Source: a virus
Virus record (IMG/VR): IMGVR_UViG_3300023184_002652
Location: 1-44,324 of that record
Strand: one strand, 5' to 3'
DNA: 44,324 bases
Positions 12,538-31,316 of the stretch are shown here, piece by piece. The notes under the pieces were generated by a model, which had not been told where the DNA came from, made no database searches, and saw nothing but the letters and a program-made list of their open reading frames with translations. Within the stretch, counting starts at the first letter, position 1, and every line of letters starts with the position of its first letter. Both the position numbers and the translations under genes were made by a program.

Positions 12538-12852
12538 ATGAGCGACTTAGAAAAAATAACCGAACAAATACGTTTGGCCACTGATTATCAAGTAAACAAA
12601 CGCATACTGAGAGAAAAAATCCAAACCGATCTTCATGTTCCTTATAATGGCGGATTATTTAAAGTTTCGCCCGAACTTATAGCATTTTTAAATGCCTGGG
12701 ACAGCGACGAATTATTCTTAGAAGATACTTACGAAAATCCAATTAAAATCAATAGAACAGAGTTCCTAACCTTATGTCGGCAACAATATCAGATGGTTAT
12801 GAATACTTGGCATTGTCAACATGAAGAAATCCGTCGTGCAAGAAAAGTCTAG
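12538..12852 (+). CDS. Small conserved phage protein leading the modification cluster
   Basis: A 104-residue, charged, probably alpha-helical soluble protein (MSDLEKITEQIRLATDYQVN). The start at 12538 is chosen over an upstream in-frame codon at 12496 because that codon lies within the terminator hairpin. The middle reads DLHVPYNGGLFKVSPEL and the end FLTLCRQQYQMVMNTWH. Similar short proteins occur in marine T4-like phages, but I know no function for them. It overlaps the following glycosyltransferase-like gene by 32 bases, suggesting coupled translation. Confidence 0.72.
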   Translation: MSDLEKITEQIRLATDYQVNKRILREKIQTDLHVPYNGGLFKVSPELIAFLNAWDSDELFLEDTYENPIKINRTEFLTLCRQQYQMVMNTWHCQHEEIRRARKV

Positions 12853-13630
12853 AGGTGTTTTACTATTTGCCTTTAATACAGAACGAACTGACTATGTAAA
12901 AATAGCAGAACGATCAGCACGACTAATACACCACACACTTGATCTCCCAGTTACATTAATTACTGATTCTGAGACCGTATCTGAAAATTTTGATACGATC
13001 GTTTATGTAGATAACACCTTACAAAATTACAAAGTTGGTGAAAGAGGTAGTTGGCGCAATGGTGACCGATTCCGTGCGTATGAACTGAGCCCATATGATG
13101 AAACACTGTTGATTGATAGCGATTATCTCATGTTGGACTCTAATCTACTTAAATTATTTGAACAGGATTTTGATTATCGCATTATGACGCATAATGATAA
13201 ACCTGCAGGCAATTGGTCCTTAAACATGGGTATGTTTGGGTTACCTTACCAGTGGGCTACTACGGTTTTATTTCGAAAAACAGATCGTGCTGGTATGTTG
13301 TTTAATCTGGTAGGGCGTGTGCAGAGAAACTATTCCTACTATATGAAACTTTATCATATGCGTGAAGGTAATTTCCGCAATGACTATGCGTTTACTATCG
13401 CTAATAATATATTGAATGGATATAATTTAGGTATGGAGCAAGGAGTGCCTTGGCCAATGCTGACATTTGCTGACGTGGTTACAAGTATCACAGTAAAAAA
13501 TAATCTACTAACGGTTAAAGAACAAGAACGAGCCTATGTGATTCCACAGCAGAATATACATGTAATGGACAAGGGTTACTTGCTAAGTGATAACTTTGCA
13601 GAATTTGTGGATACTGTATGCGCAGACTAA
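12821..13630 (+). CDS. Glycosyltransferase-like protein (GT-A type, DSD motif)
   Basis: A 269-residue protein. The N-terminal strand GVLLFAFNTERTDYVKIAE (about 12-30) is followed by DLPVTLITDS. The key segment is YDETLLIDSDYLML (about 92-105), in which D99-S-D101 matches the DxD metal/nucleotide-sugar motif of GT-A (GT8-like) glycosyltransferases. A later NWSLNMGMFGLP segment resembles the acceptor-side loop of such enzymes. No membrane segment is seen, so it should be cytosolic. The donor and acceptor sugars are unknown. The next gene is a divergent relative with the same layout, so the pair may act in sequence or as partners. Position under the cluster's late-type promoter suggests late expression. 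Confidence 0.75.
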   Translation: MKKSVVQEKSRGVLLFAFNTERTDYVKIAERSARLIHHTLDLPVTLITDSETVSENFDTIVYVDNTLQNYKVGERGSWRNGDRFRAYELSPYDETLLIDSDYLMLDSNLLKLFEQDFDYRIMTHNDKPAGNWSLNMGMFGLPYQWATTVLFRKTDRAGMLFNLVGRVQRNYSYYMKLYHMREGNFRNDYAFTIANNILNGYNLGMEQGVPWPMLTFADVVTSITVKNNLLTVKEQERAYVIPQQNIHVMDKGYLLSDNFAEFVDTVCAD

Positions 13631-14487
13631 ATCAATATCAAGCACAGCAAGGTTTCGTGACGATCGCCCAAAATATCGATGGGGTTGACTATTTACAGTT
13701 AGCCTATGTGCAGGCTATGAGCGTTAAACTTACTATGCCAGGAAGCCTGTATGCAGTAATCGTAGATAAAAAAACATCAGAATCTCTGACAGATCAGCAG
13801 AGAAAAATATTTGATTACGTTATTACTATCGAGGATGATCAAGCTGAAAATGATAGTTGGAAGATGCGCAACGAATGGCAGGTATTTTATCTTACACCGT
13901 TTAAAGAAACTATTAAACTTGAAAGTGATCTGATCATCACCAGGAGTATATCACATTGGTGGAATGCTTTTAGATTACGTGACATTGTATTAAGCACTGG
14001 ATGCCGAGATTATCTGCAGAACATCAGCACAGTCAGAGAATATAGAAAATTATTTGATGACAATAATTTGCCTGATGTTTATAACGGATTGATGTATTTC
14101 CGTTACACTCCTGATGCAGCTGAATTCTTTTGGTGGGCTCGCGAGCTATTTGAAAATTGGCCCCATGTCCGAGATAATCTACTAAAAAATTGTCGAGATG
14201 ATGAGCCTACTACAGATGTGATCTATGCGATAGCAGCCAGCATATTAGGAGAAGATAGATGCACACTGCCAGATATGGATTATATTAATTTCGTGCATAT
14301 GAAGCCTGCGATTAATAAATTCAGTGCAACAACTCCGTGGCATGAATTAGTAGTTACAGAAACAGAGTTGCCAATGGTTAGGATCAATAATATTAACCAA
14401 TATCATCCATTACACTATCAAGAAAAATCTTGGATGACTGAGGAATTAGTTAAGGAATATGAAGATGAGTTGGCAAGAAGAGTTTGA
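13618..14487 (+). CDS. Second glycosyltransferase-like protein (ESD motif)
   Basis: A 289-residue relative of the upstream protein. It keeps the same order: N-terminal strand GFVTIAQNIDGVDYLQLAY (about 12-30), then PFKETIKLESDLIITRSI (about 94-111), where E102-S-D104 stands at the DxD position. VYNGLMYFRYTPDAAEFFWW follows near 155-175, and a His/Met-rich segment (NFVHMKPAINKF) near 224-235. This is a GT8-like pattern, but with Glu for the first Asp, so metal binding may be altered. It overlaps the previous gene by 13 bases. It could be a catalytic glycosyltransferase or a non-catalytic partner. Confidence 0.68.
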   Translation: MRRLNQYQAQQGFVTIAQNIDGVDYLQLAYVQAMSVKLTMPGSLYAVIVDKKTSESLTDQQRKIFDYVITIEDDQAENDSWKMRNEWQVFYLTPFKETIKLESDLIITRSISHWWNAFRLRDIVLSTGCRDYLQNISTVREYRKLFDDNNLPDVYNGLMYFRYTPDAAEFFWWARELFENWPHVRDNLLKNCRDDEPTTDVIYAIAASILGEDRCTLPDMDYINFVHMKPAINKFSATTPWHELVVTETELPMVRINNINQYHPLHYQEKSWMTEELVKEYEDELARRV

Positions 14488-14821
14488 ACAAGCACTAAAA
14501 AGTTTTGGTGAAATCATACCAGAACCAATCGAATATCGTATACATTATGATGATACTGGTAATATTACCTTATGCACCATGCAACAGCACCCTGCTGATA
14601 GTCGCTATTTGGTCGTAGACAAGGAAACCTATGATAATTATGCAAAATACCGCGTAAACGTAATAAAGAAACAGCTCGAAAAGGTTGCGATTGATCCGGG
14701 GGTGAGTGTAAAATTAAAACGTAGTGATCAAGGTTACGCAGTAGTTCGACATCATGCGAGTTTGATTTTAGAACCCCATGAATCATATAAAAACGTAGAA
14801 TATTATGACACAGTTAATTGA
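14465..14821 (+). CDS. Small conserved phage protein of unknown function
   Basis: A 118-residue protein. The ATG at 14465 is preferred over the one at 14459 because the AAGGA site (14452-14456) is 8 bases from the former and only 2 from the latter. The sequence has two parts: an N-terminal strand region (EYRIHYDDTGNITLCTMQQH, about 23-42) with YLVVDKETYDNY, and a basic C-terminal region (VSVKLKRSDQGYAVVRHHAS). I associate the CTMQ..P...YLVVDKE pattern with short phage proteins of unknown role. It has no catalytic motif or membrane segment. It overlaps both neighbours and so is part of the cluster's continuous message. Confidence 0.7.
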   Translation: MSWQEEFEQALKSFGEIIPEPIEYRIHYDDTGNITLCTMQQHPADSRYLVVDKETYDNYAKYRVNVIKKQLEKVAIDPGVSVKLKRSDQGYAVVRHHASLILEPHESYKNVEYYDTVN

Positions 14822-15698
14822 CATAGCAGATTTAGATGTAATTTATCTTACATACGATGAACCAAACAAAGAAACCAATTGGATCAAAATACAGAACATG
14901 GTGCCCTGGGCCCGACGTGTGGATGGCATTAAAGGATCAGATGCGGCGCATAAGGCAGCGGCCCGAGCCAGTGCGACAGATCGCTTTGTGCTTGTTGATG
15001 GTGATAATATTCCCGATCCAGAATTTTTTAACCTTCAGCTTACACTTGATTCTACTAATGTGGATTGTGTTTTCCGTTGGAAGGCTCGTAACAATATTAA
15101 CGGACTGATGTATGGTAACGGTGGCCTAAGTTGTTGGACTAAAGAGTTCGTAGAAAATATGCGAACACATGAGAATACAGATGGCACAGAAGCCAATGAT
15201 GTAGAGTTTTGTTTTTATCCCAACTATTGGGCTATGCATGATTGCTACTCAACTACATATCCTAATGCTACACCTTATCAAGCGTGGCGTGCAGGATTCC
15301 GTGAAGGTGTAAAGATGTGCCTCAATAGAGGTAAACGACCTACACTACAAGAATTTGAAAATAAGATAACCAGTCGCAACTACGATCATCTTTGTATTTG
15401 GCAAACCGTAGGTGCAGATGTTGAAAATGGGTTCTGGAGTATATATGGCGCTCGGTTAGGCACTTGGATGACTATGCTGAATAACTGGGACTATAGAGAA
15501 GTCCAAGATTTTGATAAGTTAGCTGATCTATGGGAAGAATTTAAAAATGACGGACCCGATAACTGCACAGGTATAGGAAATATCTTAAGACAAAAATTAA
15601 GTCTACCTATAGTGGATATGGACCCGGAAGAAAGTCAATTTTTTAAACATCACTACAAGAGTGTGTTTAGAAATAAAGGAGTAATGGAACGTGAGTAA
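14805..15698 (+). CDS. Glycosyltransferase-like protein with DGD motif
   Basis: A 297-residue protein. It starts LDVIYLTYDEPNKETNW (about 10-26), then PWARRVDGIKG and AAHKAAARASATDRFVLVDG, with D65-G-D67 as a DxD motif. This is a GT2-like layout seen in large phages. The middle (NNINGLMYGNGGLSCWTKEF) and FREGVKMCLNRGKRP segment are strongly conserved in look. Its N-terminal domain is a clear relative of the C-terminal half of the 30015 product, which has lost the DGD residues. No membrane anchor is visible. The substrate is unknown. Its stop overlaps the radical SAM gene that follows. Confidence 0.7.
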   Translation: MTQLIDIADLDVIYLTYDEPNKETNWIKIQNMVPWARRVDGIKGSDAAHKAAARASATDRFVLVDGDNIPDPEFFNLQLTLDSTNVDCVFRWKARNNINGLMYGNGGLSCWTKEFVENMRTHENTDGTEANDVEFCFYPNYWAMHDCYSTTYPNATPYQAWRAGFREGVKMCLNRGKRPTLQEFENKITSRNYDHLCIWQTVGADVENGFWSIYGARLGTWMTMLNNWDYREVQDFDKLADLWEEFKNDGPDNCTGIGNILRQKLSLPIVDMDPEESQFFKHHYKSVFRNKGVMERE

Positions 15699-17103
15699 AA
15701 GTAAATTTATGACAGCCGCAGAAGAAATGAAGGACAAGTTAGGTCCTGCATTGTGTTTGGCTAAATGGCAACAGGTAAGCCTACACTTGCCAACCGGACT
15801 TAACAATAGTTGTTATCATCCGCCATTACATGAAATGGAAGCACAAGTGGTAGAATTTAAACCAAGTGCTATCCACAACACACAATACAAAAAAGAACAA
15901 CGTAAGAAGATGCTGGCCGGCGAACGTCCTAAAGAGTGTAACTACTGCTGGACTATGGAAGATGCCGGACATCTAAGTGATCGTCACTATCGTAGTGGTG
16001 AACCCTGGGCAGCTGAACACTATGATGAGATTAAAGCACTACCATGGGATGCAGACATCACTCCCAGCTATGTAGAAGTAAACTTCAGCCACGGTTGTAA
16101 TTTAGCTTGCTCATACTGTAGCCCACAGTTCTCAACAGAATGGCAAAAAGACATTGACCGTTGGGGTGCTTATCCTACTAAACAGCCACACAACGACCCT
16201 ATGCACTTTAAAGGTCGTCGCCAGCCTATTCCTGTCAGAGAAAACAATCCTTACGTTGATGCATTTTGGCGTTGGTGGCCTGAACTATATCCTAAGCTAA
16301 AACACTTCCGTATGACTGGTGGTGAACCCCTTATGGATAAGAATACACATCGTGTATTTGATTATGTATTAGCAAGTCCTAAACCTGATCTGCACGTTGA
16401 CGTCACCAGCAACTTCAGCGTAGAACCACAACTGTTTGACAAATACTTAGATAAGGTAAAACAACTATGTGAAGGTGAACGTATTGAACACTTCATGCAG
16501 TATGTGAGTTTAGATACAGGTATTCCTGCACATGCTGAATACATTCGTCGCGGGTTAGAGTTTGATCGTGTTAATGATTATGTTAATCGTTATCTAACAG
16601 AAATACCCGGTCGCAATAGCTTGACATATATCATCACCATGAATAATCTAAGCATCTTAGGTTTACAACGTTTATTAGAACACATTTTAATATTACGTAA
16701 GGTGCACAGCAAGACATATCAACGTGTTTGGTTTGATACACCTGTGCTACGCACACCACACTGGCAAAGTCTACAGATACTTCCTGAAAGTTATGTTGGC
16801 ATATTAGAAAACGTAGCTAAATGGATGGAACTACATAAATTAGAAGAAGGTAGTGGACGCTTTGACGGATTTAAAGATTATGAAATCCAACGCCTACGTC
16901 GTGACATCGATTGGATGAAACGAGGTAAGAAGCTCAGTGAAAAATATCTACACGACACTCGTGCTGATTTTTATCGTTTCTTTAATGAGTATGATAAACG
17001 TATCACAGCAGGATGGCCCGATGATGACCAAACATTTGTAGATGTATTCCCACAGATGAAAGAATTCTGGCAAGAGTGTAAATGGCATGCCGAAAATAGC
17101 TAA
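15691..17103 (+). CDS. Radical SAM enzyme with N-terminal twitch-like domain (C-x-H subtype), no. 1
   Basis: A 470-residue protein starting at GTG 15691, with AAGGAG 9 bases upstream. The radical SAM cluster motif is CNLACSYC (C136, C140, C143), followed by TGGEPLM near 208. Upstream sits the auxiliary-cluster set C22, C41, C83 and C86, with the spacing of N-terminal twitch domains. Here the usual CC is C41-Y-H43. Twitch/SPASM radical SAM enzymes typically act on peptides or on sugars and nucleosides by forming a 5'-deoxyadenosyl radical. The C-terminus ends in a DFYRFFNEYDKRITAGW region shared with the next gene. No substrate can be assigned. It needs S-adenosylmethionine and two Fe-S clusters if both motifs are loaded. 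Confidence 0.88.
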   Translation: MSKSKFMTAAEEMKDKLGPALCLAKWQQVSLHLPTGLNNSCYHPPLHEMEAQVVEFKPSAIHNTQYKKEQRKKMLAGERPKECNYCWTMEDAGHLSDRHYRSGEPWAAEHYDEIKALPWDADITPSYVEVNFSHGCNLACSYCSPQFSTEWQKDIDRWGAYPTKQPHNDPMHFKGRRQPIPVRENNPYVDAFWRWWPELYPKLKHFRMTGGEPLMDKNTHRVFDYVLASPKPDLHVDVTSNFSVEPQLFDKYLDKVKQLCEGERIEHFMQYVSLDTGIPAHAEYIRRGLEFDRVNDYVNRYLTEIPGRNSLTYIITMNNLSILGLQRLLEHILILRKVHSKTYQRVWFDTPVLRTPHWQSLQILPESYVGILENVAKWMELHKLEEGSGRFDGFKDYEIQRLRRDIDWMKRGKKLSEKYLHDTRADFYRFFNEYDKRITAGWPDDDQTFVDVFPQMKEFWQECKWHAENS

Positions 17104-18463
17104 CGAATCAGATGTAAGATATAAACGCAGAGTTATTGATGTTAAGTCAGCAACTTTCTGTGCAGCCAAATGGTACAATGCTACTATATGGTTAGGATCA
17201 GGGCAGACTACCAGTTGTCATCATCCATTGCCACATCAGGTAAGCGTAGAGCAAGTGATAGCTAACCCCAAAGCCTTACATAATACACCTGAAAAGAAAG
17301 AGCAACGTCGCCAGATGCAACAAGGTGAAAGACCAGCTGGATGTGAATACTGCTGGAAGATAGAAGATATGTATAAAGATCCTAAGTATGCAGGTATGGA
17401 TGTTCCTGAACCTATTAGTGATCGTGTTTATAAAACCGTAATTTATGAGGACAAAGACTTAGATGAAGCTTTCAATACTCCGCCAGAACAAGACATTAAC
17501 CTACAGACCCTGGAGATTGCTTTCGATCGCACTTGCCAGTTCGCTTGCAGCTATTGCAATCCTGCTTTCAGCAGTGCTTGGGTTCGTGACATTCATCGTA
17601 ATGGAGGATATACCAACTTGGTTTCCGATGGTCGCAACCATTTTACTCACGAGCATGGTAGTAGCCAACTTTATACTATCAATGACGTTAATCCTTACGT
17701 TGAAGCCTTCTTCAAGTGGTGGGAATCGGACCTCCACAAGACGCTGAAAGAATTACGCATCACAGGTGGCGAACCATTGATGTCAGGCTACACCTGGCGC
17801 CTAATAGATTGGTTCCAAACAAACAAAGGCAAGAGCAAGACACGTCTTGCTATTAATAGTAATTTAGGATTTGAACAAGATAAGTTAGAGAGATTATTAG
17901 ATGCTACAGAGGGTATTGAACTGGATATATATACCAGTAATGAAAGTATTGGCAGACATGCCGTTTACATACGTGATGGTTTGGATTGGGATCAGTGGTG
18001 TGGCAATGTTACTTACCTACTGGATAGTGGTCGCCTGCGTGGGCTCCACGTTATGTGCACCATTAATGCCTTATGCCTACTATCATTAGATGAATTTTTA
18101 TGGATGATAGTTAAACTCAAACAAAAATATGGCAAAGATGCTATTAACTTTAGTTTAAATATCCTACGTTTCCCAAGTTTCCAAAGTCCATTGGTATTAC
18201 CAATAGAAATAAGAGAAAACATAGTTGAAAAATTACAGATGTTTGGAAACGCTTCTCGTGAAATCATGCACGAATATGAAATTAATCAACTGGGTAGATT
18301 AATGGGATATCTGATAGAAGTAGATAGTCCACATAGCGGTGCATTAAGTAAAGAAATCTTACAGCGTGATTTTAAAAACTTTTATGATCAATATGATCAA
18401 CGCAGAGGCAAAGATTTTAGATATACGTTCCCACAACTAACAGAATGGTATGACTCACTATGA
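17087..18463 (+). CDS. Radical SAM enzyme with N-terminal twitch-like domain (C-x-H subtype), no. 2
   Basis: A 458-residue paralogue of the upstream enzyme. The cluster motif is CQFACSYC (C150, C154, C157), with TGGEPLM near 226-232. The auxiliary set is C25, C44, C86 and C89, again with C44-H-H46 in place of CC. Shared stretches with no. 1 include NPKALHNTPEKKEQRRQMQQ against the NTQYKKEQRKKM region, and the NPYVEAFFKWW against NPYVDAFWRWW. The C-terminus has the same DF-x-x-F-x-x-YD-x-R ending. The two overlap by 17 bases and probably arose by duplication with divergence. Overlapping frame shadows in this gene give hydrophobic peptides with no merit of their own. Confidence 0.88.
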   Translation: MPKIANESDVRYKRRVIDVKSATFCAAKWYNATIWLGSGQTTSCHHPLPHQVSVEQVIANPKALHNTPEKKEQRRQMQQGERPAGCEYCWKIEDMYKDPKYAGMDVPEPISDRVYKTVIYEDKDLDEAFNTPPEQDINLQTLEIAFDRTCQFACSYCNPAFSSAWVRDIHRNGGYTNLVSDGRNHFTHEHGSSQLYTINDVNPYVEAFFKWWESDLHKTLKELRITGGEPLMSGYTWRLIDWFQTNKGKSKTRLAINSNLGFEQDKLERLLDATEGIELDIYTSNESIGRHAVYIRDGLDWDQWCGNVTYLLDSGRLRGLHVMCTINALCLLSLDEFLWMIVKLKQKYGKDAINFSLNILRFPSFQSPLVLPIEIRENIVEKLQMFGNASREIMHEYEINQLGRLMGYLIEVDSPHSGALSKEILQRDFKNFYDQYDQRRGKDFRYTFPQLTEWYDSL

Positions 18464-19122
18464 TATTAGCATTTGGATGCTCAGTAACTCATGGTGCTGA
18501 TTTAGCTTACCCTAATCAGCATGAAGAAAATGTCAAATACAGTTATCCTAACATTGTGGCCAAAACTTTGGGAGTTGACTGTAAAAATTATGCAGTTTGT
18601 GGAATCAGTAATGAGGGCATATTTCATAAAGTAGTAGATACCTTAGTAAGATACAAATCCAGTGAAATCACCGCAGTGATAGTTGGATGGACCAGCACCA
18701 TGCGAGAATATTGGTCAGCTGATGAGAGAGAATGGTTTATTATCCCCAGCTGGTGTGCGACCTCAGCTAAAGATTCTCAGCTAAAACACTTTAAAGATTA
18801 TACAGATGAAGATGTGAATAGTCACCCACGGCTTTGCGCAGATAGAGAAGATTACATAGATCCGCTGTCTGATGTCTACGAAGTAATAACCAGATATAAA
18901 TTTGACATAGAAGAATACGAACGTAAAAAAAGTAATTATATTGATATGACACGACTCGTATGTAAAGAAAAGAATGTGCGCCTAATTGAAACCTGTTGTT
19001 TAGGATCAGTTGGTAGTATTAATATCAATATAGATAATTTTGGCAATTGGCGCCAAGGTAAAAATCATCCCAGTAAAGAAGATCATCAACAGGTAGCACA
19101 ACACATTTTACTTATACTATGA
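18460..19122 (+). CDS. SGNH/GDSL hydrolase-like protein, no. 1
   Basis: A 220-residue protein. The N-terminal block I is FGCSVTHG with S8 as the likely nucleophile (GCS instead of GDS). A block with NYAVCGISNEG (about 43-53) supplies the Gly and Asn oxyanion positions. VIVGWTSTMREYW follows, and block V is NHPSKEDH with H203. The canonical Asp three residues before this His is replaced (G-K-N-H), so activity is uncertain. SGNH family members remove or transfer acyl groups on sugars and other substrates. There is no signal peptide, so it should act in the cytoplasm. It joins both neighbouring radical SAM genes by 4-base ATGA overlaps. Confidence 0.75.
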   Translation: MILAFGCSVTHGADLAYPNQHEENVKYSYPNIVAKTLGVDCKNYAVCGISNEGIFHKVVDTLVRYKSSEITAVIVGWTSTMREYWSADEREWFIIPSWCATSAKDSQLKHFKDYTDEDVNSHPRLCADREDYIDPLSDVYEVITRYKFDIEEYERKKSNYIDMTRLVCKEKNVRLIETCCLGSVGSININIDNFGNWRQGKNHPSKEDHQQVAQHILLIL

Positions 19123-22877: not shown

Positions 22878-24165
22878 ACCAAAAACTCTTTGCCTTGCAC
22901 CATGGACACATACCTACCTAAGTCCTCAGACTGAGCGCCGTATGTGCTGTGCGTCACGTGAGCCTGCACAGAACTTTGAACAGTATATTGACACCAAATC
23001 CGGCACAGGTCGCTATATTCCTATTACACTTGAAGAACATTGGAACGGCGAACATATGAAAAGTGTGCGCCGTCGTATGATGGCAGGTGAAGAATTACCT
23101 GAATGTGAAGTCTGCAACAACAAATTATTGAATACTGATGTTTACAGGAGTTATTTTAACTCAATGTTCAGCCATAAGTATATGAGTATATGGGACACTA
23201 CAGACGCAGAGGGATATACAACTATGCGGCCTGTAAGTTGGGATTACCGTTTTAGTAATCTCTGCAACTTTAAGTGTCGCATGTGTGGTGATATGTTGTC
23301 TAGTGCGTGGGAGACTGAACAAAGACAACATAACATGATCGATTGGGATAATCCAAAGAATAACTGGATGCGCCCAGCCATTAAAAGCGAAATTGAAAAG
23401 TTCCAGAGCTCTGTTATAGAGCAAGAATTCGCTACCGCAGTAGAGGAACATCGAGTCGAGGAAGTATATTGGGTTGGCGGCGAGCCCCTGATGTATGAAC
23501 AACATTGGCGATACATGCACCGCATTGTTGAACTGGGAGATGGAAAAAATGTTTACGCAAGGTATAATACTAATCTTAGTCGCATCAATTATCGCGGCAT
23601 CAATCTCTGCACTGATATTCTGGCTGGGCTACGTGACTGGCAGATCTGTGCAAGCCTCGATGGTACGGGCCCAATTGGAGAGTATATCCGCACAGGTCTT
23701 GACTATGAGTCATGGCTTGCGAACTTTCAGGAAGTTGTTCGAATCTCTACGCACCGCAGACAAGCACGAATAGACTTTACATTAACATTACCGGGCATGT
23801 TTGAGCTATCAAACATTCAGCGCCTGGCTGACGATTTGGGCGTTGACATACTTGCCAAAGTGGTCTTTAGTTTTAGCCCTGATATTATCATGTCGCCATT
23901 AGCACTGCCTAAGGAGATATTACATCCTTGGATAGATGAATTACTTTTGGTTAGCGTCCGCAACAGCTCTCTAAGGGACATACTAATACAACTAAAACAA
24001 CGCCCAACCTTTCAAGAGCAATGGCCCAATGAGTGGCAATCTGCTCTTGCAAAAGGTAAGCAACGTGTGTTACAATTAGAAAGTATCCGCCAAGATACAT
24101 TAACTCTGGCTGATATTCTATTAGAAAGGAAACCTGCCTTTGAGTGGTATCAATCAATTAGTTAA
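22867..24165 (+). CDS. Radical SAM enzyme with N-terminal twitch-like domain (CC subtype), no. 5
   Basis: A 432-residue protein. The auxiliary set is C9 (CLAPWTH), C27-C28 (RRMCCAS), C80 and C83 (CEVC). The radical SAM motif is CNFKCRMC (C133, C137, C140), with VGGEPLM near 203. The segment ARYNTNLSRINYRG (about 231-244) matches LQYNTNFSRLNLKN in no. 3, and SLDGTGPIGEYIRTGLDYE matches SLDAMGARAEYIRKGTKWE, so these two are close relatives. Base composition is more balanced than in the preceding gene. It overlaps the following unknown gene by 26 bases. Function and substrate are not known. Confidence 0.88.
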   Translation: MQDRPKTLCLAPWTHTYLSPQTERRMCCASREPAQNFEQYIDTKSGTGRYIPITLEEHWNGEHMKSVRRRMMAGEELPECEVCNNKLLNTDVYRSYFNSMFSHKYMSIWDTTDAEGYTTMRPVSWDYRFSNLCNFKCRMCGDMLSSAWETEQRQHNMIDWDNPKNNWMRPAIKSEIEKFQSSVIEQEFATAVEEHRVEEVYWVGGEPLMYEQHWRYMHRIVELGDGKNVYARYNTNLSRINYRGINLCTDILAGLRDWQICASLDGTGPIGEYIRTGLDYESWLANFQEVVRISTHRRQARIDFTLTLPGMFELSNIQRLADDLGVDILAKVVFSFSPDIIMSPLALPKEILHPWIDELLLVSVRNSSLRDILIQLKQRPTFQEQWPNEWQSALAKGKQRVLQLESIRQDTLTLADILLERKPAFEWYQSIS

Positions 24166-25300
24166 AGTAACCTTGCGTAATCCGTTAAACAAAACTGATT
24201 ATTTGGACTATTATATAGTCCCTGATGATACCCAATTGGCCCGTGATTGGATATCGGCACTTGAAACTATCCTTCAGAATAAGAATCTATTAGAAAAGAA
24301 TTTCTGTTTCATGGGATTTCCTAAAACAGCAAGAACGTTAGAATATCTCTGCCAGGAACTTAATTCTGCTGTTTTCCAAATTAACATGTTTAACACTACA
24401 AGAGTGTGGGAATCTAACGGATTAAAATCTTATGTAATTGAAGATTATTTTACACCCGACAATGTGAGATTTGGCAGTGAATATCCAATAGCTATAGGCG
24501 GAAGTGATGTTAATCAGTTAGGCCTTGATATCAAGCACGGTGTAATGAATAGATTACATAACTACTTTGAACATCTACAAGGCACCGTGGAAAATCTGAG
24601 CCCTTACTACAAATTAGCTGATTATGATACGAAATATGCTATTAGACAATTAAATATTATCTGCCATGAAATAGAAAATTTAGTGCTAAGTCAGCGTAAA
24701 CTTGTAACAGCACCACGTTGGCAAAGACCCAGCCAGATCACAACATTCCTGCATGCAGATAGGTATCCTCTGACAGACGAACATAGACAAGGATTTGTTT
24801 CTAATGGGTATGATCGCCAATTTGGTCATGTATACATGCACTGGGCACAAATTGGAAAAACTTTATTTGAAGTTTTCAGAGATGAGCATGCTCCTAAATT
24901 AGATAAAGCCACCTGTGATGCTATCACTCAGTTACAGTATTATAGTGGAGAGTTCGATATAGAGTGGGCCATGGACGTGACCTATGGAGGTACATACCCC
25001 TGGCATGATCAAGAACAAGATCAATTTAGATCTTGGTTAACTGAAAACGGATTAGATTATCTTGATCCTAAATTAAGTTTAGGATATCTACCAATCGGAA
25101 AAGTTGACATCATTCGTAGTTTTGGAACAGATGATTCGCAAACAGTATGGGATATACTAAGCAATTATTTAGACATATACGCTATCGAAGTCAACGGTAT
25201 TAAAGCAGTTTTTGATTATTGTTGGAGTGACGCCAAATATAAAGAACAGCAAATAGATATGATGAGGCCCGGATATGATTATTCTAGTAGCAGGGGGTGA
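24140..25300 (+). CDS. Conserved phage protein of unknown function
   Basis: A 386-residue protein starting at TTG 24140, with AAGGA about 9 bases upstream. I do not recognise a domain. Striking stretches are HNYFEHLQGTVENLSPYYKL (about 140-159), YAIRQLNIICHEIE, the RPSQITTFLHADRYPL region, and YMHWAQIGKTLFEVFRDEHA (about 233-252). The mix of conserved-looking His, Trp, Glu and Asp is enzyme-like. The pattern recalls a family of unknown function in marine T4-like phages. No signal peptide, membrane segment or nucleotide-binding loop is visible. It lies between radical SAM no. 5 and the SGNH genes and overlaps both neighbours, so a role in the same pathway is the best guess. Confidence 0.75.
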   Translation: MSGINQLVKVTLRNPLNKTDYLDYYIVPDDTQLARDWISALETILQNKNLLEKNFCFMGFPKTARTLEYLCQELNSAVFQINMFNTTRVWESNGLKSYVIEDYFTPDNVRFGSEYPIAIGGSDVNQLGLDIKHGVMNRLHNYFEHLQGTVENLSPYYKLADYDTKYAIRQLNIICHEIENLVLSQRKLVTAPRWQRPSQITTFLHADRYPLTDEHRQGFVSNGYDRQFGHVYMHWAQIGKTLFEVFRDEHAPKLDKATCDAITQLQYYSGEFDIEWAMDVTYGGTYPWHDQEQDQFRSWLTENGLDYLDPKLSLGYLPIGKVDIIRSFGTDDSQTVWDILSNYLDIYAIEVNGIKAVFDYCWSDAKYKEQQIDMMRPGYDYSSSRG

Positions 25301-25838
25301 TAGTCATATCTGGGGTAGTGAATTAGTTGATAGCCCCCATGGTGGTGTTAATGGATATAGCAGAAAAACTTTCCCGGCACTACTGTATGAAGATTACAGT
25401 TGTGTAGCCTATCCAGGCATAGGCAATAAAGAAATCGCACAGAGAGTTATTAATGCCTGCGATCACAATATTCGCTGTAATAGTAAAAATCTTGTGTTAG
25501 TTTGTTGGAGCTGGCCGAGTCGTGATAATCAAATTAACAGCGACGAACATATAATACGATTGCAAAATTATTTGGTAGTTAATAAAATTCCTTATATCTT
25601 TACCTGTGTGGATAATTGTATAATTTCTGATAATATTGAAATTTTTTGGGATCGGTGGTATTTGTTCCCTCCGGGTGTAGAAGCACATGAAACAACTACA
25701 CCAAGAGGCTTTTATCAATGGGCTATTGAAAATAAGTATAGTGTAGGTCCAGATGGACATCCACTGGAACAAGCCCATTGGGACGCTGCAGAATTACTTA
25801 AGGAGAAATTCAATGAGTTGGTTAAAGAATCTATATAA
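25275..25838 (+). CDS. SGNH/GDSL hydrolase-like protein, no. 2
   Basis: A 187-residue protein. Block I is GGDSHIWG with S10. The glycine block is YPGIGNKEIAQR with N51. CWSWPSRDNQ follows near 77-86. Block V is PDGHPLEQAH, with H162 and an Asp two residues before it. The next two SGNH proteins share the same architecture, giving a tandem set of three. Known SGNH enzymes are esterases or acyl-group transferases, and the acetylated-sugar members are the most relevant here. There is no signal peptide. The end of the gene contains the start of a 33-codon gene. Confidence 0.78.
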   Translation: MIILVAGGDSHIWGSELVDSPHGGVNGYSRKTFPALLYEDYSCVAYPGIGNKEIAQRVINACDHNIRCNSKNLVLVCWSWPSRDNQINSDEHIIRLQNYLVVNKIPYIFTCVDNCIISDNIEIFWDRWYLFPPGVEAHETTTPRGFYQWAIENKYSVGPDGHPLEQAHWDAAELLKEKFNELVKESI

Positions 25839-25914
25839 TCGAATCAAATTAGAAATAGCATATCGTAAGAAATTAAAAGAACTACGTAAAAGAGATCCTT
25901 TTATTTACAAATAA
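25813..25914 (+). CDS. 33-residue basic protein between SGNH genes
   Basis: A short frame of 33 residues, starting MSWLKNLYNRIKLEIAYRKK and ending RDPFIYK. It has an AAGGAG ribosome site 7 bases before its ATG and a stop that overlaps the next gene's ATG (TAATG), so it fits exactly between two genes. The peptide is strongly basic with an amphipathic helical N-terminus. Small proteins ending in DPFIYK look familiar from marine phages, but I know no function. It could bind membrane or nucleic acid, or act as a coupling leader for the next gene. Confidence 0.65.
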   Translation: MSWLKNLYNRIKLEIAYRKKLKELRKRDPFIYK

Positions 25915-26558
25915 TGCGACTACTGACAGTTGGTGATAGCTTTACCTATGGTGAAGAATTAATGGAGTTAACCTCGGCTTGGCCATATATTTTGGGTAAT
26001 AAGTTAGATTATGAAGTAACTAATCTTGCTAAACCAGGTAGTGGTAACACTCGCATGGTCAGACATTGTGTAGAACAAATTAGTAACTATGATATAGCTA
26101 TTATCGGATGGAGCCATTTTGCACGTATTGAGATGGCTGACGAAAATGGATTTTATGATCTATGGCCGGGTGGTGGAACATTACCTCACAAACAATTTAG
26201 TCCGTGGCGTTGGGAAATTATAGAATATTTTAGTCGTCATCATAACGATGATTACTTATATCGACAGTATCTATTAAACATCGTTCTTATACAGAACTTT
26301 TTTAAAGCAAATAATAAGCGTTACTTAATGTTAGATAGTTTTGGGAATCACCAAGCAAATCAACGGATCGCGGAAAAAAATAAAGATCTATTAGAACAGA
26401 TTGATCCTACATACTATGTAGGTTGGCCAGATACTACAATGATGGAATGGACATACAACTGTCCTATGGGACCAAAAGGTCATTTCTTAGAAGAAGGACA
26501 TTGGAAAGTTGCTGAGAAGGTATACAGCCACATGGAGAAATTATCTTGGGTAAACTAA
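25914..26558 (+). CDS. SGNH/GDSL hydrolase-like protein, no. 3
   Basis: A 214-residue protein. Block I is VGDSFTYGEEL with S9. The oxyanion block is KPGSGNTRMV with N45. The third block has IIGWSHFARIEM. Block V is PKGHFLEEGH with H190 and H196. There is no Asp two or three residues before H190, so the catalytic dyad is degenerate, or E193 or E194 replaces it. It is closely related in layout to the proteins encoded on either side. It probably acts in the cytoplasm on an activated or polymer-bound substrate. It is coupled to the 33-codon gene upstream by TAATG and overlaps the next SGNH gene by 13 bases. Confidence 0.78.
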   Translation: MRLLTVGDSFTYGEELMELTSAWPYILGNKLDYEVTNLAKPGSGNTRMVRHCVEQISNYDIAIIGWSHFARIEMADENGFYDLWPGGGTLPHKQFSPWRWEIIEYFSRHHNDDYLYRQYLLNIVLIQNFFKANNKRYLMLDSFGNHQANQRIAEKNKDLLEQIDPTYYVGWPDTTMMEWTYNCPMGPKGHFLEEGHWKVAEKVYSHMEKLSWVN

Positions 26559-27334
26559 TTGCAGGCGGCGACAGTTTTACCTACGGAAGCGAACTTAAAA
26601 ATTGTTACAAAATACAAGAAGATGGATCGCCTATAGAGGTTTACAGTCCCTACGCTTACCCAGCACTCTTGGCTAACGAACTAAAACTGGAATATGTCTG
26701 TGCCGCAGTTCCCGGGTATAGCAATAGTGCTATCCGTAGAAGCACCATGGACATCTGTGAACAACATAATGATATAGATTTAGTTATTGTTATGTGGACT
26801 TTCCCTAATAGATATGAGTTTAAATTTGATTGCCAATGGGAACAAATAACCTTATGGAGTATCGAAGATAACGTAGAAGGTAAAATAAAGAAAGAATTTC
26901 GGAACGAAAATCCTATCGTATTCGATAAACATTTAAAAAAACTACAAAAAGAACGCGAATCTGGTATTTCTGATTTCGCTAAATCTTTTTATCGTCATGT
27001 AGGATATACAGATTATTGGCAATATTATTCCAGCTTAGTGGAAATAGTTATGTTATCAAATTATCTAAAATTAAGAAATATCAAACATCTATTTACAGTT
27101 GCAGATAACTTTATAACAAACGCCCAAACTCATGCTGAAGATCCTAGTTATAAAACTTTATTAGATCAGTCGAATAAAATTAATTGGTTTTTATTCCCCT
27201 ATAATAAGGGATTTTATACGTGGGCACAAGATGAAAAATTTCCTTTTGCCACAACACATCCTAGAGAAGAAGCACATATTGAAGCAGCAAATTTAATTTA
27301 TGAACATATTAGGTATCTCGGCTGGATTTCATGA
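26546..27334 (+). CDS. SGNH/GDSL hydrolase-like protein, no. 4
   Basis: A 262-residue protein starting at TTG 26546, preceded by GGAGA. No in-frame ATG occurs before the catalytic block, which begins at residue 7. Block I is GGDSFTYGSEL with S10. The oxyanion block is VPGYSNSAIRR with N60. VIVMWTFPNRYEF follows. Block V is THPREEAH with H238 and H244, again without the canonical Asp. It is longer than its tandem relatives because of a charged insertion around 105-150. The role is inferred as acyl ester hydrolysis or transfer in the modification pathway. It overlaps the carbamoyltransferase gene by 35 bases. Confidence 0.76.
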   Translation: MGKLIAGGDSFTYGSELKNCYKIQEDGSPIEVYSPYAYPALLANELKLEYVCAAVPGYSNSAIRRSTMDICEQHNDIDLVIVMWTFPNRYEFKFDCQWEQITLWSIEDNVEGKIKKEFRNENPIVFDKHLKKLQKERESGISDFAKSFYRHVGYTDYWQYYSSLVEIVMLSNYLKLRNIKHLFTVADNFITNAQTHAEDPSYKTLLDQSNKINWFLFPYNKGFYTWAQDEKFPFATTHPREEAHIEAANLIYEHIRYLGWIS

Positions 27335-28784
27335 TGCAGGCATAGCTCTCATCGACGATGGTGAGATCAAGTTTGCCGCACATGCAGAACGTTACAGCAA
27401 ACGCAAACACGACAGCGAACTCAACGTTGAGATGCTCAACGACTGCTTTGACCGTTACGGCACACCCACACGTATTGCCTACTATGAACGTCCTTGGCTA
27501 AAGAAAACACGACAGTTATATGCTGGTCAATACAAAGACCTATTAGAGCCTGGTATCAAACACAAATTAGAACAAGTGTGGCCTAGAGAAACTATGCCTC
27601 GCATAGAGTATTATGGACACCATCAGAGCCATGCGGCTGCAGGCTTCCAAACAAGCCCATTTGATGATGCCACAGTGGTAGTGATCGATGCTATAGGTGA
27701 GTGGGACACTATTACTATATGGCATGCCTACTATGATGATCAAGGTCGTGCGCAATATAAAAAGCTATGGAGCCGTAAATATCCACACAGTATCGGTCTA
27801 ATGTATAGTGCGTTTACTAAGCAAGCAGATCTTCGCCCATTGGACGAAGAGTATATTTTAATGGGAATGGCTGGATGGGGGAAAACTGATATAGTGTCAG
27901 CACTTCGCCTACGTAAGTCACTAATAAGTGATGATCAAGATATTATTTTTAAACACAATCTGCATTTAGGATTAACCGAAGATCTAGTCTACCCAGAAGA
28001 TCATATGGACATGGCCGCATCAGTGCAGGAACTTACAGAGGATCTGATCGGCAGTGTAATGATCAGAGCCAGCGATATTGGCTATAGCAGTAATTTAGTT
28101 TATATGGGCGGCGTCGCCCTTAATTGTAGTGCTAATCGTATATTAGGAGAATATTTTGATCGCATTTGGATTATGCCTAATCCCGGTGATGCTGGTAGTA
28201 GCCTTGGCGCGGCAGCTTTGGCTTGGGGCAGAAGATTGGATTGGCATAACGCTTTCCTTGGTTATGATATCGCTGGCCCTTACCCTACTAAAGATATCAT
28301 TTCCGAGTTAGTTACAAATAAAATCTGCGGTGTGGCCAGTGGCCGTGCAGAGTTTGGTCCAAGGGCATTAGGTAATCGAAGTTTATTAGCGGATCCCAGA
28401 GGTCCAGATATTAAGGATCAAGTAAATGAAATCAAACGACGTCAGAAATTCAGACCTTTCGCTCCAGTTATACTTGAAGAACTTGTCCATGATTATTTTG
28501 ACATGCCTGTCAATTGGAATTCAAGTGCTTATATGCAGACCGTGGCACACTGCAAGCATCCTGATCGTTATCCTGCTATTGTTCACGTTGATGGTACTAG
28601 TCGTGTCCAGACTGTTGCCGCTGATGGGTCGGGAATAAGACAGCTCTTAGAGGCATGGTTTGAATGGACAGGTTGCCCTATGTTACTTAACACAAGCCTA
28701 AACATTAGAGGTGAACCAATGGTAAATGATCGTGCAGATGCAGATCGTTTTGAACAGTTATACGGAGTTCGAGTTTGCTCATGA
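27300..28784 (+). CDS. Carbamoyltransferase (NodU/CmcH/TobZ family)
   Basis: A 494-residue protein with both family domains. The N-terminal domain (1 to about 310) opens MNILGISAGFHDAGIALI and carries YGHHQSHAAAGF (105-116), the metal-binding His motif. Later come GGVALNCSAN (270-279) and NPGDAGSSLGAA. The C-terminal domain carries GRAEFGPRALGNRSLLADPR (348-367), KFRPFAP and a LLNTSLNIRGEPMV region near the end. Family members use carbamoyl phosphate and ATP to O-carbamoylate sugars, for example in Nod factors and aminoglycosides. It is somewhat shorter than typical bacterial members. It implies a hydroxyl-bearing sugar as acceptor and so is the best clue to the cluster's chemistry. Bases 27421-27480 have 31 G or C of 60, richer than its neighbours. 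Confidence 0.92.
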   Translation: MNILGISAGFHDAGIALIDDGEIKFAAHAERYSKRKHDSELNVEMLNDCFDRYGTPTRIAYYERPWLKKTRQLYAGQYKDLLEPGIKHKLEQVWPRETMPRIEYYGHHQSHAAAGFQTSPFDDATVVVIDAIGEWDTITIWHAYYDDQGRAQYKKLWSRKYPHSIGLMYSAFTKQADLRPLDEEYILMGMAGWGKTDIVSALRLRKSLISDDQDIIFKHNLHLGLTEDLVYPEDHMDMAASVQELTEDLIGSVMIRASDIGYSSNLVYMGGVALNCSANRILGEYFDRIWIMPNPGDAGSSLGAAALAWGRRLDWHNAFLGYDIAGPYPTKDIISELVTNKICGVASGRAEFGPRALGNRSLLADPRGPDIKDQVNEIKRRQKFRPFAPVILEELVHDYFDMPVNWNSSAYMQTVAHCKHPDRYPAIVHVDGTSRVQTVAADGSGIRQLLEAWFEWTGCPMLLNTSLNIRGEPMVNDRADADRFEQLYGVRVCS

Positions 28785-29584
28785 AGAACTATTGGAACTT
28801 AGGTGGATCTCTGGATTTAGGCACGTATCCACGCGGCCAAGAAACGCAGTTTAGTCTTAGTGATCTTGACAGTGAAGAACGTTTTAATAATATACAAGGT
28901 ACACGTCATCAAGGTGATCCGCAGTGGCATGCTGACAGCTTTAGTTACAAGTATAATAGCAATGGTTTCCGTAGCAGAGAATTTGATCTCGATGAAATGA
29001 ACCCAGTCATGCTCACTCTTGGGTGTAGCCATACGGTTGGAGTAGGGGTCCCCCAACAACATAATTGGCCCGAATATCTTTGTGCTAAGTATTTTCCTGG
29101 ACATGTAGTATGGAATGCTGGGCTTGGTGGTGCATCTGCTGATACCGTGGCCAGATTAGCTGTTAATATGATACCAATCATAAAACCTGCGATTGTTGCT
29201 GTGTTATGGCCAAGCCTGTATAGATTTGAAACCTATGAAAATGGTGCTGTGATGAATGGTGTATGGACGATGGAACAGGATAATCTACAGTATGAAGATA
29301 ATACAGCCTATAACAATCAAACCAAAAACAAAACAATTTTAGATTTATTACAAGAGGTTTATAAGTTTAAATTACTGACTATCGACTGGGATCATACAGT
29401 GCAAAAAGTCTACGATACCGTAGCATGGTCCAAGGCCAGAGATGGTGCTCATTTTGGAATAGAATGGCATCAACAGATAGCCTATGACTTTTATCTACAG
29501 TATAGTAATCCTGAAGATTTTGTGTTAAAATATACAAATCCTAAAATCTATTGGGAATTATACAAGGATCGAAACATTAAATGA
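28781..29584 (+). CDS. SGNH/GDSL hydrolase-like protein, no. 5, with canonical DxxH
   Basis: A 267-residue protein from the ATG at 28781, which overlaps the previous stop as ATGA. A TTG at 28775 is also in frame. Residues 1-75 form an extra N-terminal region ending in NSNGFRSREFDLDE, a feature of several phage SGNH proteins. Block I is LGCSHTVGVGV with S83. The oxyanion block is WNAGLGGASAD. Block V is RDGAHFGIEWH, where D221-x-x-H224 is the intact catalytic pair. It is the only SGNH member here with a textbook DxxH. It is probably an esterase or acyltransferase acting on the cluster's product. It overlaps the kinase gene by ATGA. Confidence 0.82.
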   Translation: MKNYWNLGGSLDLGTYPRGQETQFSLSDLDSEERFNNIQGTRHQGDPQWHADSFSYKYNSNGFRSREFDLDEMNPVMLTLGCSHTVGVGVPQQHNWPEYLCAKYFPGHVVWNAGLGGASADTVARLAVNMIPIIKPAIVAVLWPSLYRFETYENGAVMNGVWTMEQDNLQYEDNTAYNNQTKNKTILDLLQEVYKFKLLTIDWDHTVQKVYDTVAWSKARDGAHFGIEWHQQIAYDFYLQYSNPEDFVLKYTNPKIYWELYKDRNIK

Positions 29585-30015
29585 AGATACTAATAATGGG
29601 GTTGCCTGGTAGCGGTAAGACAACCTTAGCAGAAAAACTATTCAATGAACTGTTAAAAAATCATCATACTGAGTGGGTGAATGCCGACGATCTACGCAAA
29701 GAAACCGACGATTGGGATTTTAGTCCTGATGGACGACGTCGCCAGGCACTTCGCATGCGTGCTATCGCTGACAAGGGTATTGCACAAAATTTTATTATGA
29801 TCTGTGATTTTGTTTGCCCTACACGTGAATTACGTGCGATATTTGATGCTGATATGGTCATATGGTTGGATACTATCCCTAAGAGCAAATATAGTGACAC
29901 TAATAGTATTTTTGAACGGCCTACTGAAGAAGAATATGACATAAGGATAGATGAATTTGCCAGCGATAAATGGTCTGAAACATTAGCTGATCTAATCCAC
30001 ATGTTGGTGCCATAA
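29581..30015 (+). CDS. APS-kinase-like P-loop kinase
   Basis: A 144-residue protein. Walker A is GLPGSGKTT (7-15). The next key segment is WVNADDLRKETDDWDFSPDG (about 36-55), the acceptor-binding pattern of adenylylsulfate kinases, followed by GRRRQALRMRAIAD. DFVCPTRELRAIFDADMVIW (about 79-98) completes the fold. The likely reaction is ATP-dependent phosphorylation of a small hydroxyl compound. APS itself would give PAPS for sulfation, but I see no sulfotransferase in this window, so another substrate is possible. It is shorter than bacterial CysC (about 200 residues). It overlaps both neighbours (ATGA before, TAATG after). Confidence 0.82.
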   Translation: MKILIMGLPGSGKTTLAEKLFNELLKNHHTEWVNADDLRKETDDWDFSPDGRRRQALRMRAIADKGIAQNFIMICDFVCPTRELRAIFDADMVIWLDTIPKSKYSDTNSIFERPTEEEYDIRIDEFASDKWSETLADLIHMLVP

Positions 30016-31316
30016 TGTATGATATCTTTATAATGGATATGGGCGGCCATGATGAAAATGTCCGCAACCTTCAAACACTTTATCCACACAGTCGGGTGGT
30101 TCGCTACTACGATAATCATTTAGACACTGTAAAACGCTGTGTAGCACGCAGTAGAACCCCTTATTGCTGGGTAATCGCCAGTTGCTGTAACTACTGGGAT
30201 TTTGATTTTGACTACAAACCGGTGCCATGGGAAGCCTATCAATTACACTGCTGGCACAGCGGATATGAAAAGTTTGGTGATACATTCCTTATAAATGTCG
30301 CTGAATTTGAACTACAAAAGGACATACCTCTATTAGAATGGTATAAGGAAGTAAATTGGCATTACCCTGGTGTGCCCAGATTGCCGTGGCCCTTGTTAGA
30401 AACTACCACAGAAGACATTACCTCAGAACTCAAACGCTATAAATTTGATGCACCCTATGTGTGGATCAATCAGCGGGTAGATTTCCATCCTACATTATGG
30501 AATAAACGTGCCTTTTATAGTTTTAATAACGCAGGTAGTATCAGTATAGCCCCACGTGATATTCAAGCACATTTAGGGTCACAAATCTACGATTATCCAT
30601 ACATTATCAAGGAAAAACGTGAATATTTGACACCTAATCCACTGGATATTATCTATATCAGTAACGGCGAACCCGAGGCAGAACGCTGGTATGAACACCT
30701 CGTAAACACCACACAAAGACCTGTTAAGCGTGTCCAAAATGTTGTTGGTCGCAGTAGGGCATATAAAGCCGCGGCCAAACTAAGTTCCACTCAGTGGTTT
30801 TTTACTGTATTTGCTAAGTTAGAAGTTTTGCCAACATTTGATTGGGAGTGGCAACCAGACTGGTTACAAGAACCCAAACACTATATATTCCATAGCCGTA
30901 ATCCTGTAAATGGGTTAGAGTATGGCCATATGGGAGTAATTGCTTATAACAAACAACTGGTATTAGATACAGATACTCCTGGATTGGACTTTACTCTAAG
31001 TAAAGCGCATGCTGTGGTTCCACGTGTAAGTGCAGTCGCACACTATAATACCACACCCGAACTAACTTGGCGAACTGCGTTCCGAGAAGTGATCAAACTC
31101 AAAGATGACGTGGTTAAAACTGGTAGTATCGAAAGTGACTACAGACTTAATACTTGGCTGACTATAGGTGATGGTGATTATGCAGAATTTAGTATATTAG
31201 GAGCACAAGATGCTGTTGAATATTATGATGCTGTTGAAGGCGATTACGATAAGTTGTTGCTAAGTTTTGAGTGGGCTTGGTTGCGAGAATACTACGCTAA
31301 CCGATACTCTGTTTGA
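30015..31316 (+). CDS. Tandem glycosyltransferase-like protein with degenerate metal-binding motifs
   Basis: A 433-residue protein of two similar halves. The N-terminal half begins MYDIFIMDMGGHDEN and has RSRTPYCWVIASCCNYWDFD (about 48-67). The C-terminal half begins DIIYISNGEPEAERWYEHL (about 212-230) and has GRSRAYKAAAKLSSTQWFFT followed by VFAKLEV (about 249-275), then NPVNGLEYGHMG. The second half is related to the N-terminal domain of the 14805 protein. Where that protein has V-D-G-D, these halves read I-A-S-C and V-F-A-K. Catalytic metal binding therefore looks lost, and a scaffold or sugar-binding role is possible. Its last 20 bases overlap the convergent aminotransferase gene. Confidence 0.68.
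   Translation: MYDIFIMDMGGHDENVRNLQTLYPHSRVVRYYDNHLDTVKRCVARSRTPYCWVIASCCNYWDFDFDYKPVPWEAYQLHCWHSGYEKFGDTFLINVAEFELQKDIPLLEWYKEVNWHYPGVPRLPWPLLETTTEDITSELKRYKFDAPYVWINQRVDFHPTLWNKRAFYSFNNAGSISIAPRDIQAHLGSQIYDYPYIIKEKREYLTPNPLDIIYISNGEPEAERWYEHLVNTTQRPVKRVQNVVGRSRAYKAAAKLSSTQWFFTVFAKLEVLPTFDWEWQPDWLQEPKHYIFHSRNPVNGLEYGHMGVIAYNKQLVLDTDTPGLDFTLSKAHAVVPRVSAVAHYNTTPELTWRTAFREVIKLKDDVVKTGSIESDYRLNTWLTIGDGDYAEFSILGAQDAVEYYDAVEGDYDKLLLSFEWAWLREYYANRYSV

Follow-up and report, generated by a model that had tools for sequence, protein, structure and literature searches.

The 44,324-base window that we analyzed, a linear virus fragment from IMG/VR, carries directly behind its tail-fiber genes a module of 20 genes (12538 to 31316) whose families comprise five radical S-adenosylmethionine (SAM) enzymes of NF033640, four GT-A-like proteins, five SGNH-like proteins, a carbamoyltransferase, and a P-loop kinase. 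We propose, with a probability of roughly 0.55, that this phage-encoded module builds and tailors a glycan on the co-encoded fiber. The fixed core behind the fiber, made up of five orthologous N-twitch radical SAM enzymes, three glycosyltransferase-like proteins, and a protein with an apparently new fold, is not described in the literature searched. An earlier note on this DNA had named it the best candidate for an undescribed system, which holds for the system as such in that literature; phage clusters with multiple radical SAM enzymes, however, have been reported before, in each case with no function assigned (PMC2853527, PMC12390700, PMC7029224).

Tail and fiber genes, recognized by PHROG matches, occupy positions 198 to 12465 of the window. 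The tail-fiber protein adjoining the module, 10045 (10045 to 11481, + strand; we name proteins by their start positions), has PHROG tail-fiber matches and an ATAAATA box upstream and is kept in 61/61 covered relatives. A second fiber-like protein and candidate substrate, 11497 (11497 to 12465, + strand), was placed by alignment and synteny and is found in 63 of 76. Behind it, the + strand sequence from 12467 to 12537 reads as a terminator-like hairpin with a run of T followed by a promoter box, and the module opens at ATG 12538. All 20 module genes lie on the + strand, 99.6% of the stretch is coding, leaving 75 noncoding bases, and genes overlap at 18 of the 19 junctions, which bears out the claim of the earlier note that nearly all of them overlap. 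The conserved map runs 10045, 11497, 12538, 12821, 13618, 14459, 14805, radical SAM enzymes 1 to 5, and 24140, and continues with an SGNH protein, the DUF6071 protein, the carbamoyltransferase, the kinase, and 30015. A glycine-rich, adhesin-like protein with long poly-Gly stretches also lies among the fiber genes (9153 to 10007).

This arrangement is conserved far beyond chance, and comparison of viral loci indicates a real and ancient module. Searching IMG/VR with radical SAM enzyme 19119 returned 58 loci; 14805 as query returned at least 587 relatives, and 80 of these were examined. Counts refer to the 115 loci left after removal of near-identical ones, with each gene scored only where a locus was long enough; on this basis the core genes reach 90 to 100% presence. 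For the two query genes, presence follows largely from how the loci were collected, which is not so for the others. The small conserved protein that opens the module (12538 to 12852) is present in 95/95 loci, 12821 in 96/96, and 13618 in 102/102, while radical SAM enzymes 1 to 5 are present in 99/102, 92/96, 89/93, 78/87, and 41/42, and 24140 in 37/38. The core genes keep their order in 111 of 114 loci, and fiber genes lie no more than 3.5 kb upstream of the module in all 74 loci that could be scored (74/74), so that the earlier view of one module tied to tail-fiber genes is upheld. The SGNH protein 18460, protein 21819, and extra radical SAM enzymes are gained and lost between loci, while the core enzymes are kept. 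A bacterial genome scan with 24140 gave no match, and a scan of bacterial assemblies with 14805 found seven contigs of metagenome-assembled genomes (MAGs) on which these module genes recur; six also carry the same fiber genes and are therefore phage contigs. We accordingly rejected a bacterial origin of the module, and homologs in host islands or at a distance from tail genes, which the earlier note had flagged as evidence that would count against it, did not emerge from this check. Its label "marine" was an overstatement, as nothing about the window documents a habitat.

The five radical SAM enzymes of the core belong to one family. Against a curated cut-off of 170 bits for NF033640 (N_Twi_rSAM), enzyme 1 (15691 to 17103) scores 291 bits, enzyme 2 (17087 to 18463) 285, enzyme 3 (19119 to 20594) 394, enzyme 4 (20591 to 21826) 334, and enzyme 5 (22867 to 24165) 292. 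All five, together with a sixth enzyme outside the module (35037), keep the CxxxCxxC motif and the N-terminal twitch cysteines, and the five twitch-type enzymes that the earlier note had recognized by eye are thus authenticated, cysteine ligands intact. A profile of their N-terminal half matches the BtrN twitch. BtrN oxidizes an aminocyclitol; we know of no reaction for the NF033640 family. In a tree of 153 radical SAM sequences, each of the five positions forms its own clade with support of 1.0 (membership 35/35, 33/34, 28/28, 30/30, and 24/24 for positions 1 to 5), which argues that the five have distinct functions and did not arise by recent copying, and on this tree the five roles are older than the divergence of these phages. 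Near-complete relatives of 166 to 354 kb (records G001 to G017, behind loci L006 to L137) hold 7 to 19 NF033640 matches each, many of them outside the tail module. None of the 14 control genomes has a match above the cut-off. Among 398 Pseudomonadota genomes, no more than 3 score for the family, including one MAG that contains a phage.

Because sequence searches with 12821 (12821 to 13630) yielded almost nothing, its structure was predicted with AlphaFold2 (AF2; predicted local distance difference test [pLDDT] score, 89.2). Foldseek returned 138 Protein Data Bank (PDB) matches with an E value below 1e-3, led by glycogenin (E 1.7e-6) and followed by pneumococcal GlyE and UGGT, all of which are protein-glycosylating enzymes. 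The template modeling (TM) scores of 0.40 to 0.49 place the likeness to this glycogenin-like GT-A fold at the fold level only. Protein 12821 carries a DxD-type motif (DSD at 99). Its neighbor 13618 (13618 to 14487) is homologous to it (hhalign probability, 97.5), with a weak profile match to glycogenin. Neither has any Pfam hit, PF01501 (GT8) above cut-off included, and we therefore call both GT8-like and not members of GT8. Protein 14805 (14805 to 15698), which has a DGDN motif, is the best-conserved protein of the module (mean column identity, 73%); its GT2 match is weak (PF13641, E 1.4e-4, below cut-off). The two-domain protein 30015 (30015 to 31316) has a GT2-like C-terminal half homologous to 14805 (hhalign probability, 99.7; E 7e-27). 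The at least three glycosyltransferase-like proteins of the earlier note are thus recovered, 12821 by fold, 13618 and 30015 by homology, and 14805 by its weak GT2 match. No homologs of 14805 or 13618 were found among cultured phages. The small protein 14459 (14459 to 14821) is present in 68 of 111 loci and diverged in the others. The variable insert 21819 (21819 to 22877) looks glycosyltransferase-like by eye only, through a TEKTxKP...HPF motif, and was rejected as a GT10-like transferase for want of Pfam or PDB support.

The remaining enzymes would act as tailors. The identity of 27300 (27300 to 28784), already called a carbamoyltransferase by the earlier note, as a NodU/TobZ-type O-carbamoyltransferase is solid: both domains exceed their cut-offs (PF16861, 165 bits, 1.7e-48; PF02543, 129 bits), PHROG 1601 agrees, and GdmN and TobZ are its PDB matches. 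It scores 144 bits against the NodU equivalog, whose cut-off is 1000. Five proteins carry SGNH motifs, as had been claimed, with GDS in block I of three, GCS in two, and a C-terminal His in all; the Pfam cut-off is passed by 25914 alone (25914 to 26558; DUF6071, PF19547; 20/22 loci). The others are 18460 (18460 to 19122), a putative hydrolase or acyltransferase that is a variable insert in few loci (PF00657, E 4.9e-4); 26546 (26546 to 27334), with a GDS motif and a weak PF13472 match; and 25275 (25275 to 25838; GDSH and C-terminal H) and 28775 (28775 to 29584; GCSHT and DGAH), which lack a Pfam match and are called by motif. The protein at 29581 to 30015 is a P-loop kinase (PF01583 above cut-off, E 7.9e-10; PHROG 10255). 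Its earlier description as "APS-kinase-like" went too far, given 30.8 bits against a cut-off of 138.7 for the adenosine 5'-phosphosulfate (APS) kinase equivalog TIGR00455.

The core protein 24140 (24140 to 25300) has, as far as the libraries searched show, a new predicted fold. Its AF2 model has a pLDDT of 84.8. We rejected its assignment to a known enzyme, as searches of Pfam and of PDB sequences and folds found no relative (best Foldseek E value, 0.38). It matches 10 phage proteins in BFVD; its BFVD match to a 300-residue protein of phage Atu_ph07 is weak (TM 0.35 to 0.42). The C-terminal tail, of the form GYDYSS-R/G (GYDYSSRG), is predicted to be disordered yet is conserved. Because a GYDYSS-type tail is present in just 34 of 60 homologs and absent from the 26 others, which keep the module, a role of the tail as universal substrate is unlikely, and we rejected it.

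Taken together, a GT8-like fold, a carbamoyltransferase, SGNH proteins, and BtrN-like twitch domains fit glycan assembly and tailoring, in line with the sugar-bearing product that the earlier note had predicted from these gene families. The fixed adjacency to one fiber type suggests the fiber as acceptor, and we infer both this substrate and the chemistry of each radical SAM enzyme. In the scenario that we propose, the soluble glycosyltransferases 12821, 13618, and 14805, often joined by 30015, would build a glycan in the cytoplasm of the infected cell, with one or both of the tail-fiber proteins whose genes immediately precede the module (10045 and/or 11497) as acceptor. The five nonredundant radical SAM enzymes would then perform difficult C-H chemistry, such as oxidation, epimerization, or C-C bond formation, on sugars or on sugar-bearing fiber residues. 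The carbamoyltransferase and SGNH proteins would add or remove carbamoyl and acyl groups, with variation from phage to phage, and two genes just outside the core, on the - strand, may supply an amino-deoxy sugar: a DegT-type sugar aminotransferase (31297 to 32415; PF01041, 1e-79) and an NAD-dependent sugar epimerase/dehydratase (32375 to 33340; PF01370, 3.3e-45). We count in favor of fiber decoration that ATAAATA boxes in the window are common to the fiber genes and the module and that the core is kept while SGNH genes and extra radical SAM enzymes are swapped. We also count in its favor that the cultured jumbo phages Atu_ph07 and Phosso have another cluster of multiple radical SAM enzymes behind the homologous fiber gene, that no multi-transmembrane protein, flippase, or polymerase and no small precursor gene was recognized in the module, and that phage enzymes are established as glycosylating virions in mycobacteriophages (cited in PMC12619734). 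Independent support for the link between radical SAM enzymes and glycosyltransferases comes from the genes of the cultured Vibrio phage K566, of another lineage, in which NF033640 enzymes stand beside two GT8 proteins above the Pfam cut-off; a search for a fiber like 11497 in K566 gave no match.

Several points weigh against fiber decoration. No cultured phage of this lineage was found, and the GT2 evidence for 14805 and 30015 is weak. Similar glycosyltransferases of pelagimyophages were taken by their authors for modifiers of the host O-chain (PMC7029224). Proximity between fibers and accessory islands has other causes as well, recombination hot spots among them. Finally, the module head has a sigma70-like, leaderless promoter in 32 of 56 relatives, unlike the late promoter of the fiber gene (95/103 relatives), and the module may therefore be expressed before the fibers.

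The promoter of this window differs in that respect. A GATAAATA box (12525 to 12532, + strand) stands after the terminator-like hairpin, 5 nucleotides before ATG 12538, and its ATAAATA (12526), a motif of T4-type late genes, is probably functional here. The window contains 5 copies of the motif where 20 would be expected, each of them on the + strand and a short distance ahead of a start (3626, 5808, 10045, 12538, and 40833). Among relatives, ATAAATA precedes fiber 10045 in 83 of 113 cases and the module head in 8 of 108. The motif of the late-type promoter claimed by the earlier note is present, but late expression as a general feature was rejected, and "late" would apply only here and in the few near relatives that share the motif. 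At the module head, most loci show a -10-like hexamer whose end usually falls 6 to 7 nucleotides before the ATG, and a Shine-Dalgarno sequence is found at 3 of 56 module heads versus 100 of 103 fiber genes, which indicates that the module has its own, probably leaderless, promoter. Several loci (among L002 to L139) carry an operator-like inverted repeat, GGTGTAG...CTACACC, over the -10 of the module head.

Other features lie further from the module. Two radical SAM enzymes overlooked by the earlier note are the NF033640 member at 35037 to 36560 (- strand, 216 bits) and a seventh enzyme at 40833 to 41837 (+ strand) that falls short of that family at 40.7 bits. The latter, preceded by an ATAAATA box of its own, is an isolated + strand gene in a region otherwise read from the - strand. 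A DUF2201/VWA protein (39461 to 40765, - strand) and a MoxR-like AAA ATPase (42160 to 43248, - strand) accompany a thymidylate synthase; Pectobacterium phage CBB has a similar DUF2201/VWA-MoxR-thymidylate synthase arrangement, hinting at distant kinship to Rak2-like jumbo phages.

The foremost alternative, which we consider unlikely, is that the module makes or alters a sugar unit of the host O-antigen or capsule, blocking superinfection or readsorption of progeny. Pelagimyophage islands rich in glycosyltransferases, some with radical SAM cassettes, were interpreted in this way (PMC7029224). A sugar aminotransferase and an epimerase adjoin the module, the sigma70-like promoter of most relatives permits expression before the late phase, and O-antigen synthesis has cytoplasmic steps that need no membrane component. 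Yet Pfam and hydropathy searches of the module identified no flippase, polymerase, ligase, priming transferase, or multi-transmembrane membrane protein (maximum hydropathy, 1.72, with few segments above 1.6), and linkage to one fiber type in 74/74 loci and an ordered core contrast with the variable islands of pelagimyophages.

Less probable still, taken as a whole, is a maturation of the fiber akin to that of ribosomally synthesized and posttranslationally modified peptides (RiPPs), in which the radical SAM enzymes act on virion polypeptides to form cross-links, epimerized residues, or cyclophanes, sugars sit on modified residues or are secondary, and 24140 is a substrate or scaffold. The conserved disordered tail of 24140 speaks for it, as do two cultured jumbo phages. 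Fiber 10045 and its neighbors 198 and 5721 have homologs in Atu_ph07 and Phosso, where SPASM-type radical SAM enzymes resembling peptide maturases (DynA, PapB, and HxsB models, with scores below cut-off) fill the slot behind the fiber, together with a cupin, recognized by Pfam in Phosso, and a protein whose C terminus reads CHxSCHASCHxSRSRR. By count of coding sequences (CDS), this protein of Atu_ph07 is gp170, a candidate virion protein and the first gene of a cluster of virion proteins (CDS 170 to 215) found by mass spectrometry (PMC6102473). Such a tag, in the near-invariant form CHxSCHxSCHxSR[GS]RR, recurs on otherwise different phage proteins (23616 to 24536 in locus L148, 24386 to 25276 in L147, 10294 to 10830 in L162, 5572 to 6132 in L163, and others in L164 to L316), with exactly 6 residues after the last CH in 137 of 147. 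A protein scan of IMG/VR for the CHxS protein p3 was empty, and it was a DNA pattern search that found the tagged proteins, more than 100 of them in IMG/VR and nearly all ending in xSRGRR after the last CH. A radical SAM gene lies no more than 300 nucleotides from 54 of the 67 tagged proteins of at least 150 residues; tagged proteins of about 127 residues often stand in tandem without one. The tag also occurs beside radical SAM enzymes in Pseudomonas phage pPa_SNUABM_DT01 and Burkholderia phage FLC6, and the hosts of the cultured phages that carry it are Pseudomonas aeruginosa, Burkholderia, Agrobacterium, and Sinorhizobium. By its sequence context it looks like an undescribed, radical SAM-modified virion tag; neither CHSSCH nor SRGRR is named as a tag among the papers that the literature search listed.

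Against a RiPP-like maturation in the window itself, the CHxS tag is absent from the window and 17 relatives; we rejected the tag for this lineage, so that the tagged phages have a different system in this slot. N-twitch and SPASM enzymes are separate families, hhalign found no homology between Atu_ph07 or Phosso proteins and module families other than radical SAM, and the core holds three glycosyltransferase-like proteins. The tail of 24140 is missing from the 26 homologs noted above, and no open reading frame of the module fits a short RiPP-type precursor, for which 75 noncoding bases in 18.8 kb leave no space as a separate small gene. In CBB, the 5721 homolog is followed by another structural gene with no radical SAM enzyme annotated, and the slot can therefore lack such a module.

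We see a very small chance that the module serves to make a diffusible, sugar-derived compound during infection, either a natural product or a signal and perhaps aminoglycoside-like: its TobZ/GdmN-type carbamoyltransferase, its GT-A enzymes, and the BtrN-like twitch are reminiscent of how aminoglycosides are tailored, but no gene for export, resistance, or scaffold formation (such as inositol synthase) was identified, and the fixed fiber linkage would go unexplained. Phage base-modification clusters do contain radical SAM enzymes, kinases, carbamoyltransferases, and glycosyltransferases, and the thymidylate synthase at 36560 and a dihydrofolate reductase lie 5 kb away; DNA hypermodification with that synthase supplying the base is nonetheless scarcely credible and was rejected, because these two genes are part of the neighboring backbone and belong, with DUF2201, to another transcription unit, CBB has thymidylate synthase and DUF2201 beside structural genes with no radical SAM module annotated, the module stands behind fiber genes and not replication genes, and the GT8-like fold is protein directed.

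Decoration of the fiber by glycan assembly and radical tailoring is our preferred reading. Beyond it, we offer tentatively the broader possibility that fibers are finished by radical chemistry in a widespread class of phages, through the N-twitch line and three glycosyltransferases here and, in the corresponding slot of other jumbo phages, through SPASM enzymes that would act on the C-terminal CHxS tag. If this is true, virion proteins altered by radical chemistry would represent a category of protein maturation new to viruses; no case of radical SAM tailoring of virion proteins was found in the literature searched. Host-binding fibers determine the host range of phages, and virion glycosylation is so far known in few of them. 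A fiber-side line of five radical SAM enzymes would partly explain why diverged, apparently common aquatic phages carry 7 to 19 such enzymes, and because cultured phages show the linkage of fiber and tag, mass spectrometry of their virions could put the question to the test.

The closest precedents in architecture are phages in which radical SAM enzymes gather in clusters. The T4-like Campylobacter phages CP220 and CPt10 encode 11 to 12 radical SAM proteins. A single swappable cluster contains five of these, and the available text of the 2010 report proposes metabolic fitness as its only role; unlike the window module, that cluster includes a putative glycine amidinotransferase, and no glycosyltransferase is named in the same text (PMC2853527). 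The C-terminal domain of fiber 10045 is found in CP220/CPt10 too, and a tblastn search with the radical SAM enzymes of the window gave no hit there. Aeromonas phage 332-Vera has a structural cluster with eight radical SAM enzymes, called "highly unusual" and left without an assigned function (PMC12390700). Both 332-Vera and its relative pPa_SNUABM_DT01 resemble the window in having many radical SAM genes within the tail-gene cluster of a jumbo phage; in pPa_SNUABM_DT01 they are accompanied by a cupin, 2-oxoglutarate-Fe oxygenases, and the CHxS-tagged protein, and no glycosyltransferase is annotated, unlike in the module. Pelagimyophages have a host-recognition island at their tail fibers, with glycosyltransferases and, in some members, radical SAM cassettes; compared by description, that island is highly variable and nonsyntenic, whereas the core here is fixed and ordered (PMC7029224).

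The closest precedent in proposed function comes from mycobacteriophages, whose glycosyltransferases modify their own virion proteins, the targets being, reportedly, the C termini of capsid and tail tube proteins (Freeman 2023, cited in PMC12619734). In the proposed module, too, phage glycosyltransferases would act on structural proteins of the phage itself. To our knowledge, no radical SAM, carbamoyl, or SGNH tailoring is known for mycobacteriophage virion glycosylation. Within N_Twi_rSAM NF033640 itself, the window is set apart by five orthologous groups in one fixed line.

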